Shown here one piece after another: positions 3,431-60,327 of a stretch of DNA of 64,000 nucleotides. Origin of the DNA: Flavobacterium sp. K5-23 (GTDB taxonomy: Bacteria; Bacteroidota; Bacteroidia; Flavobacteriales; Flavobacteriaceae). Under the pieces are notes generated by a model, which did no database searches, was not told the DNA's origin, and worked only from the letters and a program-made list of their open reading frames with translations. The stretch is taken from contig NZ_CP056783.1 in assembly GCF_023278045.1 (NCBI RefSeq), forward strand, positions 1,583,501 to 1,647,500. Reading direction: 5' to 3'. The translations under genes were made by a program, and so were the position numbers. Position 1 is the first letter of the stretch; each line of letters starts with the position of its first letter.

Positions 3431-4366
3431 ATGAGTTTAGTTTCTATAATATTACCAAGCTATAACCATGCAAAGTTTTTAAAAAAACGTTTGAAAAGCA
3501 TACAGGACCAAACTTTTAAAGATTGGGAACTAATAATTATTGATGATTGTTCTTCTGATGAAAGTGTATTCATTATAAATGAATTTATAAAAAGCCATCC
3601 TGCAATGAAAATCAAACATTTTATTGTTAACGAAACCAATTCGGGAAGTGGTTATAAATCCTGGCAAAAGGGGATTGTGCTTGCTGAAACTGATTACATC
3701 TGGTTAGCAGAAACCGATGATTATTCCGAACCTTTTTTTTTAGAAGAATCATTAGGTATCTTAGAAAAAAATAGCAATATTCCTTTGGTGTTTTGTACAA
3801 GTAATTATGTAGATGAGAATAATAAGTTTTTATATGATAGCAGAAAAAGAACATCTCCTCTAGGCATCTCTGAAGATACTTTCGGGGTAATAAAAAACGA
3901 AATCATTATAAACAGTTTTCCGTTTAATTCATTTATAACTAACGGCAGCAGTGTTGTGTTTAGAAAGCCGATTACTGCTATACCTGTTGAATTATTCCGA
4001 AACAGGCAGATGTCGGACTTATTTTTGTGGACTTGGCTCATTCAAAAACAGGATATTGCTTTTTTGAATAAAAAGTTGAACAATTTTAGACGACACGCTG
4101 ATTCAACAACAACTAAAATAGATTTATATCAACGAGAAACTTTGTATACAGAATTTGTAGACTATTTGAATTTTTATCCCAATACTAAAAAAAACGAATT
4201 ATTATTTGCAAAATTCGTTAAAGAGTATTGGATAATCCAATTAAAGAAAGGACATTTTTCCATACAATGGTTAAGAGGTTTAAAAAACTATAATTTTTTC
4301 ACATTACGAACAAAACTGATGGTACATTTGTTTAGGTTTGTACTTTCTAAACTATATTTTTTTTAA
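3431..4366 (+). CDS. Glycosyltransferase family 2 (GT-A)
   Basis: A 311-residue GT2 protein: VSIILPSYNHAKFL at residues 4-17, DDCS at 38-41 (the DDxS nucleotide site) and ETDD at 94-97 as the DXD-like metal site. The stretch IWLAETDDYSEP is characteristic of bacterial glycan-assembly GT2 enzymes. A C-terminal hydrophobic stretch (LFRFVLSKLYFF) may associate with the membrane. Its stop codon lies 7 bases before the ATG of the next GT2 gene, so the pair is almost certainly one transcriptional unit. Sugar specificity cannot be stated. Confidence 0.83.
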   Translation: MSLVSIILPSYNHAKFLKKRLKSIQDQTFKDWELIIIDDCSSDESVFIINEFIKSHPAMKIKHFIVNETNSGSGYKSWQKGIVLAETDYIWLAETDDYSEPFFLEESLGILEKNSNIPLVFCTSNYVDENNKFLYDSRKRTSPLGISEDTFGVIKNEIIINSFPFNSFITNGSSVVFRKPITAIPVELFRNRQMSDLFLWTWLIQKQDIAFLNKKLNNFRRHADSTTTKIDLYQRETLYTEFVDYLNFYPNTKKNELLFAKFVKEYWIIQLKKGHFSIQWLRGLKNYNFFTLRTKLMVHLFRFVLSKLYFF

Positions 4367-30924: not shown

Positions 30925-31788
30925 ATGGGTAAACAAAGAGTGATTAGGAAAAAAGTGGTTCGTAGAAAAAGCAATAAGAAAGTTTCTTTTTTCTCATTTC
31001 TTTTTACAAAATACAGCGTAATAGCTTTTTTGGTTCTCCTTTTTTTGGGTATGGGCTATCATTACCGAAATGGACTGGCTTATTATTTTAGTTTCAAAAC
31101 GAATAAAGTTCTAAGAGAAAGAGCAGCTGATAAACGACTTTCGGATGTTCGTAATATTCAGGTTTTACAAAATCACTCAGGGAAGTCTATTGGAATAGAT
31201 GTGTCCGAATATCAAGGCGAAATTCAGTGGTCTTATGTTGATACATTAGAAAATAAATATCCATTACACTTTGTGTTTATTAGAGCAACTGTTGGAAACG
31301 ACAGGCTAGATAAGAAATTCAATGAAAATTGGCTTGGCGCCAAAAGAAACAAACTCATTCGGGGAGCCTATCATTATTATCGTCCTAATGAAAACTCATT
31401 GGAACAAGCGGAATTGTTTATTCAAACAGTAAAGCTTAGTAAAGGCGATTTACCACCTGTGCTGGATATCGAACAAATGCCTAAAAATCAATCGATGGTT
31501 AAATTGAAGGTTGGTTTGAAAAGATGGTTGAAAAGGGTGGAAGAGCATTATAAAGTTAGACCGATTATTTATACCGGTGAGAAATATTATGATGATTTCT
31601 TAAAAGAGGAGTTTTCCGACTATCTTTTTTGGATCGCCAATTATAACTTTTATAGAGAAAAAATTAATGAAGACTGGCTGTTTTGGCAATTCTCAGAGAA
31701 AGCATCAGTTCCTGGGATAAAAGGCAATGTAGATGTCAATATTTATAATGGAGATTTACAGCAGTTGCAGTTTATTACAGTGGAGTAG
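30925..31788 (+). CDS. Glycoside hydrolase family 25 lysozyme
   Basis: A 287-residue protein with a basic N-terminal segment, one membrane anchor (YSVIAFLVLLFLGMGYHY, residues ~29-46) and a GH25 domain: IGIDVSEYQGEIQW (residues ~90-103), FVFIRATVG, GAYHYYRP, VLDIEQMP (catalytic Asp/Glu) and WIANYNF, WQFSE. GH25 enzymes cleave the beta-1,4 bond between N-acetylmuramic acid and GlcNAc in peptidoglycan. Anchored in the inner membrane with the domain in the periplasm, it is likely a cell-wall remodelling enzyme. Heptad repeats start 9 bases after its stop. Confidence 0.9.
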   Translation: MGKQRVIRKKVVRRKSNKKVSFFSFLFTKYSVIAFLVLLFLGMGYHYRNGLAYYFSFKTNKVLRERAADKRLSDVRNIQVLQNHSGKSIGIDVSEYQGEIQWSYVDTLENKYPLHFVFIRATVGNDRLDKKFNENWLGAKRNKLIRGAYHYYRPNENSLEQAELFIQTVKLSKGDLPPVLDIEQMPKNQSMVKLKVGLKRWLKRVEEHYKVRPIIYTGEKYYDDFLKEEFSDYLFWIANYNFYREKINEDWLFWQFSEKASVPGIKGNVDVNIYNGDLQQLQFITVE

Positions 31789-31796
31789 TTTTTTTA

Positions 31797-31872
31797 GTAA
31801 TCAGTGATCAGTGATCAGTGATCAGTGTTCGGTGTTCAGTGTTCAGTGTTCAGTGGTCAGTAATCAGTGTTC
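31797..31872. repeat. Phased 7-bp repeat array, left part
   Basis: From 31800 ten consecutive 7-base units can be read: ATCAGTG four times, TTCGGTG, TTCAGTG three times, GTCAGTA and ATCAGTG, ending in TTC where the IS begins. Consensus is WTCAGTR. The phase continues exactly on the far side of the IS (33186-33234), so this is one array split by an insertion. Confidence 0.9.
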
Positions 31873-31913
31873 TGTACTTCCCTGATATAGGTTGACCACA
31901 AAAGTCAAGTTAT

Positions 31914-32309
31914 ATGAATGCAAATTTAAAAGAAATTAGGAAACTCCGAGTTTATTCGGAAGAGTTTAAAAAAGGAATCGTAAGTTTTTACGAAAGCGGG
32001 AAGTATAGTGTTCTGCAATTAGAACGACTTTACGGAGTAAATAACGTTACAATCTACAATTGGATTTATAAATTTTCTACTTTTAATGAAAAAGGAATTA
32101 GAGTTGTAGAAATGAAAGATAGTAACATTGATAAGCTAAAACAGTTAGAACTCAAGATAAAAGAACTTGAACAAGCGGTTGGTCAGAAGCAAATAAAAAT
32201 TGATTATCTCGAAAAGATGATTGATATAGCTAAAGATGAATTTAATATCGACATAAAAAAAAACTCCAACACCCCACAATCAGCTGGTTCGTTGAGAACC
32301 AGAAAGTAA
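31914..32309 (+). CDS. IS3-family transposase OrfA (helix-turn-helix)
   Basis: A 131-residue protein: YSEEFKKGIVSFYESGKYSV, then LERLYGVNNVTIYNWIYKF form a helix-turn-helix of the transposase_8 type that binds the IS ends, followed by a Leu-rich coiled coil (IDKLKQLELKIKELEQAVGQ) used for multimerisation. The run of nine A at 32255-32263 lies where ribosomes would shift by -1 into orfB to make the OrfAB transposase. Confidence 0.88.
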   Translation: MNANLKEIRKLRVYSEEFKKGIVSFYESGKYSVLQLERLYGVNNVTIYNWIYKFSTFNEKGIRVVEMKDSNIDKLKQLELKIKELEQAVGQKQIKIDYLEKMIDIAKDEFNIDIKKNSNTPQSAGSLRTRK

Positions 32310-33172
32310 TAAGTTTTTCTTTAAATCAGCTTTACGAAACACTTGAAATAAGCAAGCAAGCAGTTAATCAGTATTCAAAAAGACAGGTTGCTTTTGAAAG
32401 AAAGATAGAATGTCTGATTTTAGAAGCAGAGGAACTAAGGAAAGAACACCCTGGTTGTGGGGTTGAGAAAATGTATTATGCTTTGCGTCCTAATTTCATA
32501 GGAAGAGATAGATTTATCGATACGTTTATGGATTTAGGGTTCAGGATAAAAAGGCATAAAAATTACAGGAGAACAACGTTTTCTGTGAAAGTTTATTTTC
32601 CGAATCTAATAAAGTCAATGTCTGTATATGCTCCGTCGACGATTTGGCAATCGGATATAACTTATATTTATGTTGGAGAAAGATTTTATTACGCAGTGTT
32701 TATAATAGATGTTTATACAAAGAAAATCGTTGGACATCAACTATCTAATCATATGAGAGCTACTGCTAATTTAAGCGCAATGCAAATGGCATTAGAAAAC
32801 AATCAAGCTCCAATGATACACCACTCTGATAGAGGTAGTCAGTATATTTACAATGAATATATAGCTCTTCTCAAAGTGAGTGGATGCGAAATCAGCATGG
32901 CATTGTCAGGACAAGACAATGCTTATGCAGAAAGGATTAACAGAACAATAAAAGAAGAGTATATAGACCATTGGAAACCTAAAACATTTGAACAATTAAA
33001 AAAGGATGTAGATAGAGCAGTTGAACATTATAATAATAAGAGACCTCATAACAACATAGGGAAATTAAGCCCTGTTGATTTTGAAAATAATTGGTTCAAT
33101 AATCCTCTTTTTTCTAAGCCTATTATTACTATTTTTGACAATGATAAATTAATAGAAATCGGTCAACTTTAA
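32255..33172 (+). CDS. IS3-family transposase OrfB (DDE integrase core), frameshift-expressed
   Basis: The frame is open from 32246 and is entered by -1 slippage on the A-tract at 32255-32263; an internal ATG exists at 32471. Upstream of that ATG the sequence still encodes conserved OrfB residues (SKQAVNQYSKRQ, EELRKEHPGCGVEKMYYAL), so the true protein begins at the shift site. DDE residues are in WQSDITYI, HHSDRGSQY and NAYAERINRTIKEEY. The integrase core is complete, ending WFNNPLF, so the element may be active. Confidence 0.87.
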   Translation, partial: KKKLQHPTISWFVENQKVISFSLNQLYETLEISKQAVNQYSKRQVAFERKIECLILEAEELRKEHPGCGVEKMYYALRPNFIGRDRFIDTFMDLGFRIKRHKNYRRTTFSVKVYFPNLIKSMSVYAPSTIWQSDITYIYVGERFYYAVFIIDVYTKKIVGHQLSNHMRATANLSAMQMALENNQAPMIHHSDRGSQYIYNEYIALLKVSGCEISMALSGQDNAYAERINRTIKEEYIDHWKPKTFEQLKKDVDRAVEHYNNKRPHNNIGKLSPVDFENNWFNNPLFSKPIITIFDNDKLIEIGQL

Positions 33173-33185
33173 TTAGGGACGTGCA

Positions 33186-33240
33186 TTCGGTAATCAGTGG
33201 TCAGTGTTCGGTATACGGTAATCAGTATTCAGTAAGTAAT
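33186..33240. repeat. Phased 7-bp repeat array, right part of the split array
   Basis: After the TTC target duplication the units read GGTA (completing TTCGGTA), ATCAGTG, GTCAGTG, TTCGGTA, TACGGTA, ATCAGTA and TTCAGTA up to 33234. With the left part this makes 17 contiguous heptads. Its segment ATCAGTATTCAGT (33221-33233) is perfectly complementary to ACTGAATACTGAT (33717-33729) beyond the following gene. Confidence 0.9.
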
Positions 33241-33264
33241 GATTAGCTTTATAAGATAATACAA

Positions 33265-33636
33265 ATGATGAAATTCCAAGATTTATTAGCATATAAGAAA
33301 TCATTTTCACTAGCGATGAAAATTTTTGAAATAACAAAACAATTTCCGAAGGAAGAAATGTATTCTTTAACGGATCAAATTAGGCGCTCTTCAAGAAGTG
33401 TTCCTGCTAATATTTCAGAATCCTACAGAAAAAGAGTTTATCCTAAAAATTACCACAGTAAATTAACTGATTCTGATGCTGAAAATTCAGAAACTCAAGT
33501 TTGGCTGGAGTTTTCATTTAAATGCAACTATATAAATGAAAGTGTTTATAATGAATTGTTAAATGAAAGTAATGAAGTTGGAAAACTAATTAATTATATG
33601 ATTTTAAATCCGCAAAAATTTGGTGTAGCTCTCTAG
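33265..33636 (+). CDS. Four-helix-bundle protein (S23 / TIGR02436 type)
   Basis: A 123-residue, wholly helical protein: KFQDLLAYKKSFSLAMKIFE, TKQFPKEEMYSLTDQIRRSS, RSVPANISES and QVWLEFSFKCNYINESVYNE match the family first found in intervening sequences of 23S rRNA genes and related to the accessory protein bAvd of diversity-generating retroelements. Two adjacent ATGs (33265, 33268) are possible. The gene is flanked by 7-bp repeat arrays in opposite orientation, which could pair in a transcript. The family binds nucleic acid in the cases studied; no function is known for free-standing copies. Confidence 0.88.
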   Translation: MMKFQDLLAYKKSFSLAMKIFEITKQFPKEEMYSLTDQIRRSSRSVPANISESYRKRVYPKNYHSKLTDSDAENSETQVWLEFSFKCNYINESVYNELLNESNEVGKLINYMILNPQKFGVAL

Positions 33637-33666
33637 GAAAGTTGTCACTGTGTACTTGTTGCTTTT

Positions 33667-33757
33667 TTTAACTGATCACTGAATATTGTCTACTTTTTTA
33701 AAACTGATTACTGACCACTGAATACTGATCACTTTTTTAAACTGAAAACTGATCACT
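33667..33757. repeat. Inverted counterpart of the 7-bp repeat array
   Basis: The units here are the reverse complement of those upstream: ACTGATC, ACTGAAT (33671-33684), ACTGATT, ACTGACC, ACTGAAT, ACTGATC (33703-33730), and ACTGAAA, ACTGATC (33741-33754), separated by T-rich spacers ACTTTTTTAA. Two stretches of 12-13 bases pair perfectly with the array before the four-helix-bundle gene (33194-33205 with 33710-33721; 33221-33233 with 33717-33729). The array ends 4 bases before lptB's stop. Confidence 0.88.
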
Positions 33758-33760
33758 TTC

Positions 33761-34501
33761 TTAAAACTCCAACTTCTTTTTTCTTAATTCGAAATTTTGT
33801 CCTAGATACACACGGCGTACCATTTCGTCTTCCACTAATTCTTCAGGAATTCCTGCTTTTAATATTCCACCTTCAAACATCAAGTAGGTTTTGTCAGTGA
33901 TTGCTAAAGTTTCCTGAACATTATGATCGGTAATAAGGATTCCGATGTTCTTGTTTTTTAATTGAGCAACAATTCTTTGAATGTCTTCTACCGCGACTGG
34001 ATCTACACCTGCAAATGGTTCGTCAAGTAGGATGAATTTTGGGTCGGTTGCTAGACAGCGTGCTATTTCGGTACGACGGCGCTCACCTCCAGAGAGTAAA
34101 TCTCCTCTGTTGGTACGAATGTGCTCCAGACTGAATTCAGCAATCAGGCTTTCCATTTTTGCTTCCTGTTCTTCTTTCGAAAGATTCGTAAGCTGAAGCA
34201 CACTAAGGATATTGTCTTCGATACTTAATTTTCTAAAAACCGATGCTTCCTGAGCCAAATAACCAATACCGTGTTGTGCTCTTTTGTACATCGGGTAATC
34301 AGTAATGTTTAAATCATCAAGGTAAATGTTTCCTGAATTTGGTTTAACCAATCCAACAATCATATAAAAAGAAGTTGTTTTTCCAGCACCATTTGGTCCA
34401 AGAAGACCAACGATTTCTCCTTGATTTACTTCCACCGAAATGCCTTTTACAACGCTTCTTCCTTTGTATGTTTTAACTAAATTATCGGCTCTTAAAATCA
34501 T
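33761..34501 (-). CDS. lptB: LPS export ABC transporter ATP-binding protein
   Basis: A 246-residue ABC ATPase: Walker A GPNGAGKTTS (residues ~35-44), Q-loop YLAQEASVFRKLSIEDNI, signature LLSGGERRRTEIARCLA near 138-154, Walker B FILLDEPFAGVDP and the switch His in ILITDHNVQE. The short length, RKLSIEDN and NFELRKKKLEF ending identify LptB. It powers LptFG to extract lipopolysaccharide from the inner membrane. It is the last gene of a minus-strand run with kdsD and tatC. Confidence 0.92.
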   Translation of the reverse strand: MILRADNLVKTYKGRSVVKGISVEVNQGEIVGLLGPNGAGKTTSFYMIVGLVKPNSGNIYLDDLNITDYPMYKRAQHGIGYLAQEASVFRKLSIEDNILSVLQLTNLSKEEQEAKMESLIAEFSLEHIRTNRGDLLSGGERRRTEIARCLATDPKFILLDEPFAGVDPVAVEDIQRIVAQLKNKNIGILITDHNVQETLAITDKTYLMFEGGILKAGIPEELVEDEMVRRVYLGQNFELRKKKLEF

Positions 34502-58507: not shown

Positions 58508-60327
58508 GTGTGTTATTTTTCCAGAGGGTGTAAGTCCCTTATGGGCGGATTGAAACCCCGAACCATTAGTACGTCGCAAGCTGGTTTATCGTGAGATATG
58601 CAGTGAAGGAAGCGAAACGGCAAAATCCGGTACTGACGAACAGAAACGGCATAAGAGGCTGTTATACGAGGATAAGCAAGCACAGCATTGCAACGTCCAA
58701 AGATTATCAAAATCGTATCTCAGTAGATGTCGCAGGGATTGGACGAAGGAAAAAGCTCTTACCAGGGGAGGTCTTTGCAACCACGAGTTGGTAAAGTAAA
58801 GAAGTCAGCAGAAGTCATAGTACTTGGGGCAACGAGTTGCGAATAGATACCGCACAAGTCTCACAAACAAGGAAGGACTGAACGCAAGTGGTTCTTAATT
58901 TCTAAAGGAATGACGCAAGTTATAGCCCTAGAAAAGCGGAACAGGAAGAATTTAATGTAAAACTTAAGAATGATTGCACAAGTAACACATCCTTACAATC
59001 TCCAAAAGGCGCTACGTCAAGTAGTAGTCAACAAAGGTAGTGCTGGCGTTGATGGTTTAAAAACCACTCAGCTGACGGATTATTTCCGTGAACATAAATC
59101 TGCATTACTGGAAGATATTAAGAATGACCGTTATCTACCGCAACCCATCCTTGGGGTGGAGATTCCCAAAGGAGGCGGAAAGTTCCGACTCTTGGGAATC
59201 CCAACAGTAGTCGACAGACTACTTCAACAAGCCGTATCACAAGCGATGATGCCAAGATTCGAAAAGGATTTTAGTGTGAATAGTTTCGGATTTCGACCCA
59301 ATAAAAATGCCCGCCAAGCGGTAGGCAAAGCCTTGGGAAACATTCACGAAGGCTACAATTATATTGTAGATATTGACCTAAAGAACTTCTTTGACGAAGT
59401 CGATCATTGCTTGTTGCTGAACCTAATTTACCAAAAGGTAAAATGCCCAACGACTTTACGGTTAATCCGCAAATGGTTGCGAGTGCCTATACTCATCAAA
59501 GGAAAACTAGTCAAACGTAGAAAAGGAGTTCCGCAAGGAGTCCAATTAGTCCGCTTTTGTCAAATATCCTACTCCACGAATTGGACAAGGAATTGACAAG
59601 AAAAGGAGTGAAGTTTGTTCGTTATGCCGATGATTTTAGCATTTACACCAAATCGAAAACCCAAGCCAAAACGGTTGGTAATGCTATCTTTCTGTTTTTG
59701 AGAGACAAGCTAAAACTGACTATTAATCAAGAAAAGAGTGGGATTAGAAAACCGATTCAGTTCACGATATTGGGCTTTTCGTTTGCATCGACCTATCAAA
59801 AAGGCGTAAAAGGCAGGTATCAATTAACGGTAGGAAAGAAAGCTTGGGCAAAACTCAAGCAAAGTTTAAAGGAAGCGACCCGCAAAACTGCACCTAGAAG
59901 TTTCGAGGAACGTATCCGAAAAATCAATGAAATTCAACGAGGATGGTTAAACTATTTTCGGGGAACGAGTATTCAAGGAAAGCTACGAGATATTGATGGT
60001 TGGTTGCGCAATCGTCTGCGCTATTGCATTTGGACGGATTGGAAGAAACCCGAACGCAAAAGGAAAAACCTGATGCGACTAGGAGTTGATAAAGACCACG
60101 CCTATGCTTGGAGCAGGACAAGAAAAGGAGGCTGGCGTATTGCTCAAAGTCCGATTCTAACTTCTACAATTACCCTACTACGGCTTAAGAAGAAAGGCTA
60201 TCGGTCTATGTTGGAAACACACATTGAACTCAACCCATCACTTTGCGAACCGCCGTATACGTGACCCGTACGTACGGTGGTGTGAGAGGCGCACTCCGTT
60301 AGTTTCTAGCGGAGCCGTCTACTCGAT
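58508..60327 (+). mobile_element. Group II intron with internal reverse transcriptase ORF
   Basis: The 5' end GTGTG (58508-58512) fits the intron consensus, followed by a structured leader with AAGTCCCTTATGGGCGGATT, GAAACCCCGAACCA and AGTCAGCAGAAGTCATAGTA, as in other bacterial group II introns. Domain V lies at about 60247-60282 (ACCGCCGTA pairing with TACGGTGGT), domain VI at about 60289-60316 (CTCCGTTAG with CTAGCGGAG). The 3' end is near CTCGAT (60322-60327). Boundaries are good to a few bases. It sits in intergenic DNA, opposite in direction to its neighbours. Confidence 0.8.
58970..60264 (+). pseudogene. ltrA: Group II intron reverse transcriptase/maturase, frameshifted
   Basis: Two overlapping frames (58970-59596 and 59557-60264) make up one LtrA-type protein of about 430 residues. 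The first has KNKGSAGVDG-like KGSAGVDGLKTTQLTDYF, GIPTVVDRLLQQAVSQAM, NSFGFRPNKNARQAV and YIVDIDLKNFFDEVDH. The second has FVRYADDFSIYTKSKTQA (catalytic YADD) and the maturase segment NEIQRGWLNYFRG. A one-base loss inside the conserved PQG..SPLLSN region (around 59533-59545) breaks the frame. No HNH endonuclease domain follows. It is either inactive or a sequencing error. Confidence 0.82.

Follow-up and report, generated by a model that had tools for sequence, protein, structure and literature searches.

The subject of this study is a small gene of Flavobacterium sp. K5-23 that codes a four-helix-bundle (FHB) protein and is enclosed by inverted arrays of short repeats. It lies within a stretch of 64,000 nucleotides (contig NZ_CP056783.1, positions 1,583,501 to 1,647,500 of the forward strand), here called the window, whose numbering is used for all coordinates given without a locus number. 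The upstream neighbour is a GH25 gene (30925..31788, + strand; PF01183, 148.7 bits). The convergent neighbour on the other side codes an ABC ATPase (33761..34501, - strand) which from its sequence we take to be of LptB type and call lptB. The left array starts 6 nt past the GH25 stop codon (31788) and is divided in two. Its first part (31794..31870, + strand) has 11 TCAGTNN heptads, nine with an exact TCAGT, and its second part (33187..33235, + strand) has six heptads, four of them exact. The two parts are separated by an IS3-family insertion sequence (about 31873..33187, both ends approximate, + strand; NCBIfam transpos_IS3) with open reading frames (ORFs) at 31914-32309 and 32471-33172 on the + strand. 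The 17 heptads that the initial annotation counted after removing this insertion are the 11 and six units described here. The FHB gene (33265..33636, + strand) codes a protein of 123 amino acids of the S23 or 23S_rRNA_IVP family (PF05635, TIGR02436). It is followed by the right arm, composed of ACTGA heptads (- strand) in three blocks (33669-33682, 33701-33728 and 33739-33752) separated by T-rich spacers. This arm starts 9 nt behind the lptB stop codon (33761), and both outer arrays lie less than 10 nt from the stop codons of the convergent neighbours.

The assignment of the gene to the S23/TIGR02436 type holds, as the protein clearly exceeds the cut-offs of both PF05635 (112.5 bits against 33.8) and TIGR02436 (107 bits against 24). 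Its relatives among PDB sequences, found with phmmer, are 2RLD and 2GSC, and it matches no nuclease or transposase family. Three ORFs of at least 60 amino acids are present between the arms: two are borne by the IS3 element, which is a later insertion, and the third is the FHB gene. Among ORFs of this size compared to Pfam and NCBIfam the unit thus has no transposase of its own. The Rfam search at gathering thresholds gave no match at the FHB unit and no rRNA among the matches of the window, the site being between GH25 and lptB. The perfect 12- and 13-base complementarity noticed earlier between the two sides was found again and is exceeded by an exact 20-mer (31849-31868 against 33703-33722). 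When the downstream side was shuffled 200 times by mononucleotides, a complementary word of at least 12 nt appeared once. An lptB orthologue is found in 24/24 congeneric genomes with 90-98% identity, and tblastn places GH25 within 1.5 kb of it in 15 of these 24 loci. In several congeners a small ORF is seen by eye between GH25 and lptB (L049, L050, L053, L059, L062, L063), which was not seen in the genome of the window or in L051.

The arrays were surveyed around the closest relatives of this gene, namely the best 80 of 259 loci from one scan of genome contigs, whose FHB proteins have 69-94% identity. Arrays of at least three in-step CAGT units lie within 1 kb of the FHB gene in 55/80 loci. 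The 500 bp upstream hold 49 arrays, 47 in the TCAGT sense, and the 500 bp downstream hold 63, of which 55 are in the ACTGA sense. The sequence beyond 500 bp, which serves as an internal distance control, has 22 arrays in about 1.32 Mb, so the array density near the gene is about 75-95 times that further out. Most of the 25 loci failing the CAGT rule carry looser CAGT arrays, by a judgement made by eye rather than a count. The orthologues thus keep their arrays, in support of the initial annotation. The 80 loci occupy more than a dozen gene pairs, including ruvC-hemW, ffh-folD, a UbiA-type gene and GH25-lptB, names that are presumed from the sequences. Another idea, initially favoured, regarded the arrays as mere 3' ends of the two convergent neighbours. 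It was based on each array abutting a stop codon and on inverted CAGT-type arrays in L052 and L057, where there is no FHB gene at this place. Once the 80-locus and family surveys were available it was no longer kept as a full explanation.

CAGT arrays are not private to this locus, a view that was rejected when 27 further regions of the genome were found to contain them. The strict CAGT pattern (TCAGTNNTCAGTNNTCAGT) occurs 65 times in the whole genome and its reversed control 0 times. In a hand list of 30 arrays, which excludes rRNA-spacer copies and some short blocks, 19 start at most 30 bp behind a same-sense stop codon. Six regions (L016, L021, L027, L028, L033, L035) share one common CAGT array and spacer just before a tRNA-like sequence; these unannotated copies are presumably the 16S-tRNA-Ile spacer of rRNA operons. 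Two short-repeat runs (L023:2130-2190 and 3990-4110), of ATAATTCATAACTC type and CAATGTCAATGGC type, adjoin CAGT arrays, and the first of them resembles the flanks of the FHB gene of L007. The IS3-family element is present in the genome in nine full copies and one split copy (the window copy and L037-L047). It seems to target CAGT arrays, since the left ends of nine of the ten copies, located by eye, lie inside such arrays (the exception is L040). IS1397 is likewise known to insert into REP sequences. Elsewhere in the window, positions 58585-58878 and 59162-59781 hold group II intron domains and, behind these, a reverse transcriptase match that is split in two, with a stop codon in one of the pieces.

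This genome has nine PF05635 genes, and CAGT arrays stand at a single one of them. This apparent absence of an association was considered as a refutation and abandoned once the flanks of the other eight genes were read, most of which carry inverted arrays of different short repeats. CAGT arrays are found at one of nine genes because FHB lineages have different motifs: seven of the nine have an inverted-flank score above 14. The initial annotation had regarded arrays spread over the genome and not enriched near FHB genes as evidence against a unit. The 27 regions and the one gene in nine correspond in part to such a situation in this genome, and the relatives reverse it.

The survey of inverted flanks started from every PF05635 match in this genome and in 18 congeners, 97 in total. 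Seven loci without an ORF match to the profile were left out (L211, L233, L240-L243, L245); the remaining 90 loci gave 92 ORFs, 91 with both flanks, L172 and L198 holding the same two genes. Controls were 875 other genes and a stricter group of 442, both drawn from the 80-locus set and not from the 19 genomes. ORFs were called with a simple script, which makes the neighbours and part of the start codons approximate; over-trimming of a few long FHB ORFs lowers their scores because coding DNA then stands in the upstream flank. The flanks exceed the 99th percentile of the 875 control genes in 61/91 FHB records (60/89 without the duplicated gene pair) and the 95th percentile in 72. When flanks are swapped between FHB genes the score falls to background (3.3%). 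In the stricter control, limited to non-FHB genes that have a real gap on either side, 13/442 score above 14, and seven of these 13 look like one other repeat-flanked family. FHB flanks show periods of 7 and 14 nt, with z values of 17.9 and 24.2 at lag 7 (the genus-set test used 82 of the 91 records). There is a weak rise at 8 in the genus set and at 15 in the 80-locus set, the other lags from 3 to 13 being flat.

The same layout is found at greater distance. In a phylum-wide draw of the 29 best-scoring loci, of which 28 were used, ten score above 14 compared to 0.7% of swapped pairs. Among 14 plasmid loci hand-picked from 48 records the proportion is 10/14, against 7.1% of swapped pairs. Thirteen of these come from other phyla (cyanobacteria, Azospirillum, Chlorohelix), nine of them scoring above 14, and one, from Bernardetia, belongs to the same phylum. 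One plasmid unit, from Anabaena, has cas6 and cas4 on its two sides. At 4/14 plasmid loci (L308, L311, L312, L315), all on cyanobacterial plasmids, the FHB gene adjoins a gene whose annotation is tyrosine recombinase or integrase. The proposal that inverted arrays flank FHB genes more often than other genes is therefore supported by the 80-locus, genus and plasmid surveys.

The repeat motif differs between FHB lineages and tracks the protein rather than the site or the species. This was measured on FHB genes taken two by two from different sites, by cross-matching the upstream flank of one to the downstream flank of the other; same or different site was judged from the neighbours in short loci, with some errors likely. 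The cross-match is at background (8.3-8.6) below 50% protein identity, 9.5 at 50-60%, 12.4 at 60-70%, 14.6 at 70-80% and 15.2 at 80-90%. Most close pairs belong to the CAGT lineage. In the non-CAGT lineages the motif is shared by 9/13 pairs with at least 70% identity (8/11 when a locus present twice is counted once), by one of about 107 pairs at 50-70% identity and, within one genome, by 0/177 FHB pairs below 50%. A comparison of 101 congeners gives a similar picture: the 34 genomes in which an FHB gene or pseudogene of the CAGT lineage is present have a mean of 18.7 strict CAGT matches (median 4.5), against 5.0 (median 0) in the 67 genomes without one (p 4e-5).

A second protein family has the same plan. 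The seven alike controls mentioned above share similar starts, and the one scanned with Pfam, which lies behind hemW (L095:11787-12164), belongs to PF13366 (PDDEXK_3, of a nuclease superfamily). Inverted flanks scoring above 14 were found at 23 of 30 PF13366 genes (L322-L351, taken from 67 matches in the same 19 genomes), compared to 5% with swapped flanks. Their motifs differ between loci, and no period of 7 was found in the 30 loci. As two unrelated families of small proteins share it, the inverted-array plan, and not the FHB protein, may be the more general thing.

The site between ruvC and hemW is found in three states. The gene hemW is present in all 19 genomes (G000-G018) and ruvC adjoins it in 16; it was not found beside hemW in L287, L289 and L297. 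The gap, measured from the last matched ruvC codon to the hemW start with the stop codon counted, amounts to -1, 2 or 4 nt where the site is empty, namely in the three congeners L286, L292 and L288, whose genes overlap or lie 1 nt apart. Six genomes, including that of the window (L275), have a CAGT-type hairpin of 51-73 nt (also L276, L277, L281, L284, L290), and three have a hairpin with another motif (L280, L282, L285), the motif names being assigned by eye. An FHB unit of 466 or 566 nt occupies the site in two (L291, L278), and the state is unassigned in L279 and L283. The empty sites whose search had been proposed thus exist, together with sites that hold a hairpin alone. Five of the nine bare hairpins match the motif of an FHB gene of the same genome with a score of at least 18 (G000, G004, G006, G008, G015). 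A bare hairpin may be a scar, a gene-less copy or an older insertion.

The FHB protein is under purifying selection. In the 80-locus set plus the window the median dN/dS is 0.125 over 401 usable pairs (pS 0.05-0.6, out of 3240) and none exceeds 0.5; an internal stop codon interrupts 2/81 sequences. The gene has the sense of both neighbours in 150 records, stands between convergent neighbours in 12 and divergent ones in five, and is antisense to both in none. These 167 records hold duplicates, and the genus and 80-locus sets share genomes (L082 = L051 = L194; L105 = L202). Grouping by site gives 39 sense, three convergent, two divergent and 0 antisense clusters, the largest of which may merge different sites. 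In operons the element is thus seen in the sense orientation only. Between the convergent GH25 and lptB genes the FHB gene of the window points the same way as those of L078 and L080, and the opposite way to those of L082, L083 and L090.

The closest described thing is the intervening sequence (IVS) of 23S rRNA, as in Coxiella burnetii and Leptospira, in which an ORF of the PF05635 family stands between inverted repeats able to form a stem. The Coxiella IVS (PMC4990558) has 428-444 nt, carries an S23p ORF and ends in inverted repeats that give a stem of 28 bp; RNase III cleaves it in vitro, and tandem heptamers (GACAGAT) precede the ATG of the ORF, as the left arm precedes the FHB gene here. 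It is sporadic and thought to be horizontally acquired, and a relative of S23p is a pentamer of four-helix bundles in a structure from 2006 (same source). The present unit resembles an IVS and fails its defining location, lying between protein genes and outside rRNA. It differs also by arms that are heptad arrays with lineage-specific motifs, and a genome has several such loci as well as bare hairpins. Reductive evolution is described for the Coxiella ORF (PMC4990558), unlike the FHB protein, which is under purifying selection. Other reports place IVP genes in insertions within the rRNA of CPR bacteria (PMC11270868) and inside cas loci (PMC3936711). The free-standing unit of IVS kind suggested initially is therefore supported as regards inverted flanks, orthologues, empty sites and the IVS as nearest relative; the pairing of its arrays in RNA finds no support in the mismatch test considered below, and recognition of the arrays by the protein is suggested only indirectly, by motifs that track the protein lineage.

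Similar repeats were described without a protein partner. The TAACTGA heptamers of Beggiatoaceae, cyanobacteria and Bacteroidetes (MacGregor 2015, PMC4679880) are of the same kind (TCAGTTA is the reverse complement), intergenic and near start or stop codons. The portion of that paper available here proposes no FHB partner, its main text not containing 'four helix', 'S23' or 'intervening sequence'. No publication linking FHB/S23/PF05635/TIGR02436 genes, or PF13366 genes, to such short repeats outside rRNA was found among the search results viewed, which did not cover subscription papers and most preprints. Cyanobacterial STRR heptamers are further intergenic heptamer repeats. In REP/BIME elements with their RAYT transposases, short repeats follow stop codons, a gene is associated with them and insertion sequences target them. 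All three traits recur in the present unit, which differs in that the FHB protein matches no transposase family and in that the repeats are heptad arrays whose motif varies between lineages.

The IVS parallel leaves one serious rival reading, that the element acts at the RNA level: the arms would pair in the operon mRNA around the FHB ORF and RNase III would cut the stem, as in the 23S IVS. It has in its favour the Coxiella anatomy (PMC4990558), the sense orientation at every co-directional site cluster seen, and the folding of the arms. Minimum-free-energy folds with at least 15 arm-arm pairs are obtained for 73/80 loci with their own arms, compared to 15/80 when one arm is shuffled. Own arms also pair better than swapped arms, with a mean duplex energy of -53.35 against -49.79, a value as low being reached in 3/5000 permutations; within single sites the numbers are 91 (ruvC-hemW), 116 (UbiA) and 357 (ffh-folD) of 5000. 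Yet swapped arms fold almost equally often (69/80), and the convergent and divergent records fit this reading poorly. Selection for pairing in the sense-strand RNA should moreover leave G-U mismatches in excess of A-C. The 158 units examined have 177 G-U against 226 A-C mismatches, a ratio of 0.78 (95% 0.63-0.97), with no G-U excess; in the 80-locus set the ratio is 0.75 for own arms and 0.80 for swapped arms, with no sign of selection for sense-RNA pairing. RNA pairing, one of the two kinds of pairing put forward initially, is not claimed here because of this negative test, own arms being only modestly better than swapped ones, and the RNA-level reading is considered rather unlikely.

A role of the FHB protein as a regulator, whose operators would be the arrays next to its gene together with those of a regulon elsewhere, is more doubtful still. 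The coupling of motif and protein lineage and the many arrays away from FHB genes would be expected of it, and regulatory roles were proposed for the Beggiatoaceae heptamers (PMC4679880). An operator would work with one arm and without inversion, however, the arrays of this genome stand mostly behind stop codons, and the content of one site, ruvC-hemW, varies among relatives. It is very improbable that the arrays are independent intergenic satellites with the FHB gene as a chance neighbour. The 27 CAGT regions without FHB genes and the arrays of genomes lacking the lineage are compatible with this idea, to which the enrichment, the orientation and the lineage coupling are all contrary for the family as a whole. 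An even slighter chance is given to the FHB protein being the accessory protein (Avd) of a diversity-generating retroelement (DGR), although PF05635 resembles Avd (PMC10053308). The profile matches are weak and both below curated cut-offs (bAvd, 37.6 bits against 40; Avd, 34.3 against 80). The nearest of the seven RVT_1 matches of the genome lies about 25 kb off, by a group II intron, and the one reverse transcriptase that was typed is nearest to group II enzymes (254.9 bits, model cut-off 300). No DGR reverse transcriptase was found near the FHB gene, no search having been made for template and variable repeats, and the literature search on Avd binding gave nothing relevant.

The preferred reading is that the locus is probably one copy of a recurrent two-part element, an FHB gene with its cognate short repeats, mostly of 7 nt, in inverted arrays at both ends. 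Several observations weigh against it. Inverted flanks stay below threshold in 30/91 FHB records of the genus set and are not above it in 18/28 loci of the phylum-wide draw. Four of the nine ruvC-hemW hairpins (G005, G010, G011, G017) reach only 9-14 in the comparison to FHB motifs of their genome. At least five strict CAGT matches occur in 10/67 congeners without a CAGT-lineage FHB gene, the highest counts being 86 in G049, a genome only 60% complete, and 76 in G054, and arrays must therefore persist or arise without it. A target-site duplication was not established at ruvC-hemW, where the two genes overlap or lie 1 nt apart in the congeners with an empty site. The sites are, finally, mostly inherited together, with 16 label changes on a tree of few columns and many open forks (minimum 8; shuffled mean 43.4), so that movement would be slow.

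The two-part element would occupy the intervals that separate protein genes, in most cases directly after a stop codon and, in operons, immediately ahead of the following start codon. It has probably moved between sites, and bare array hairpins stand where relatives carry the gene. The FHB protein, whose structurally solved relative is a pentamer, might bind its own repeat, more likely on single-stranded or hairpin DNA than demonstrably on RNA. Such binding could allow host enzymes to assist in copying or maintaining the element and the bare arrays. A strand-cutting activity is not apparent in the FHB protein, which matches no nuclease or transposase family.

The chances appear about even that FHB genes and arrays form a widespread and so far undescribed class of two-part elements, each lineage with its own repeat of 7 nt, sometimes 8 nt, that is the source of many unexplained heptamers. 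The rRNA IVS would then be the special case of an element landed in rRNA, and PF13366 a parallel class. FHB/S23 proteins are common and have a known function only in the DGR case. Should every FHB lineage have a repeat to which it is tied, the function of these proteins and the heptamer repeats that lack a partner become one testable question: does the FHB protein bind its cognate repeat, and does it spread or keep the arrays? The rRNA intervening sequences would also gain a common framework, and studies of specificity would have many natural pairs of protein and repeat to draw on.

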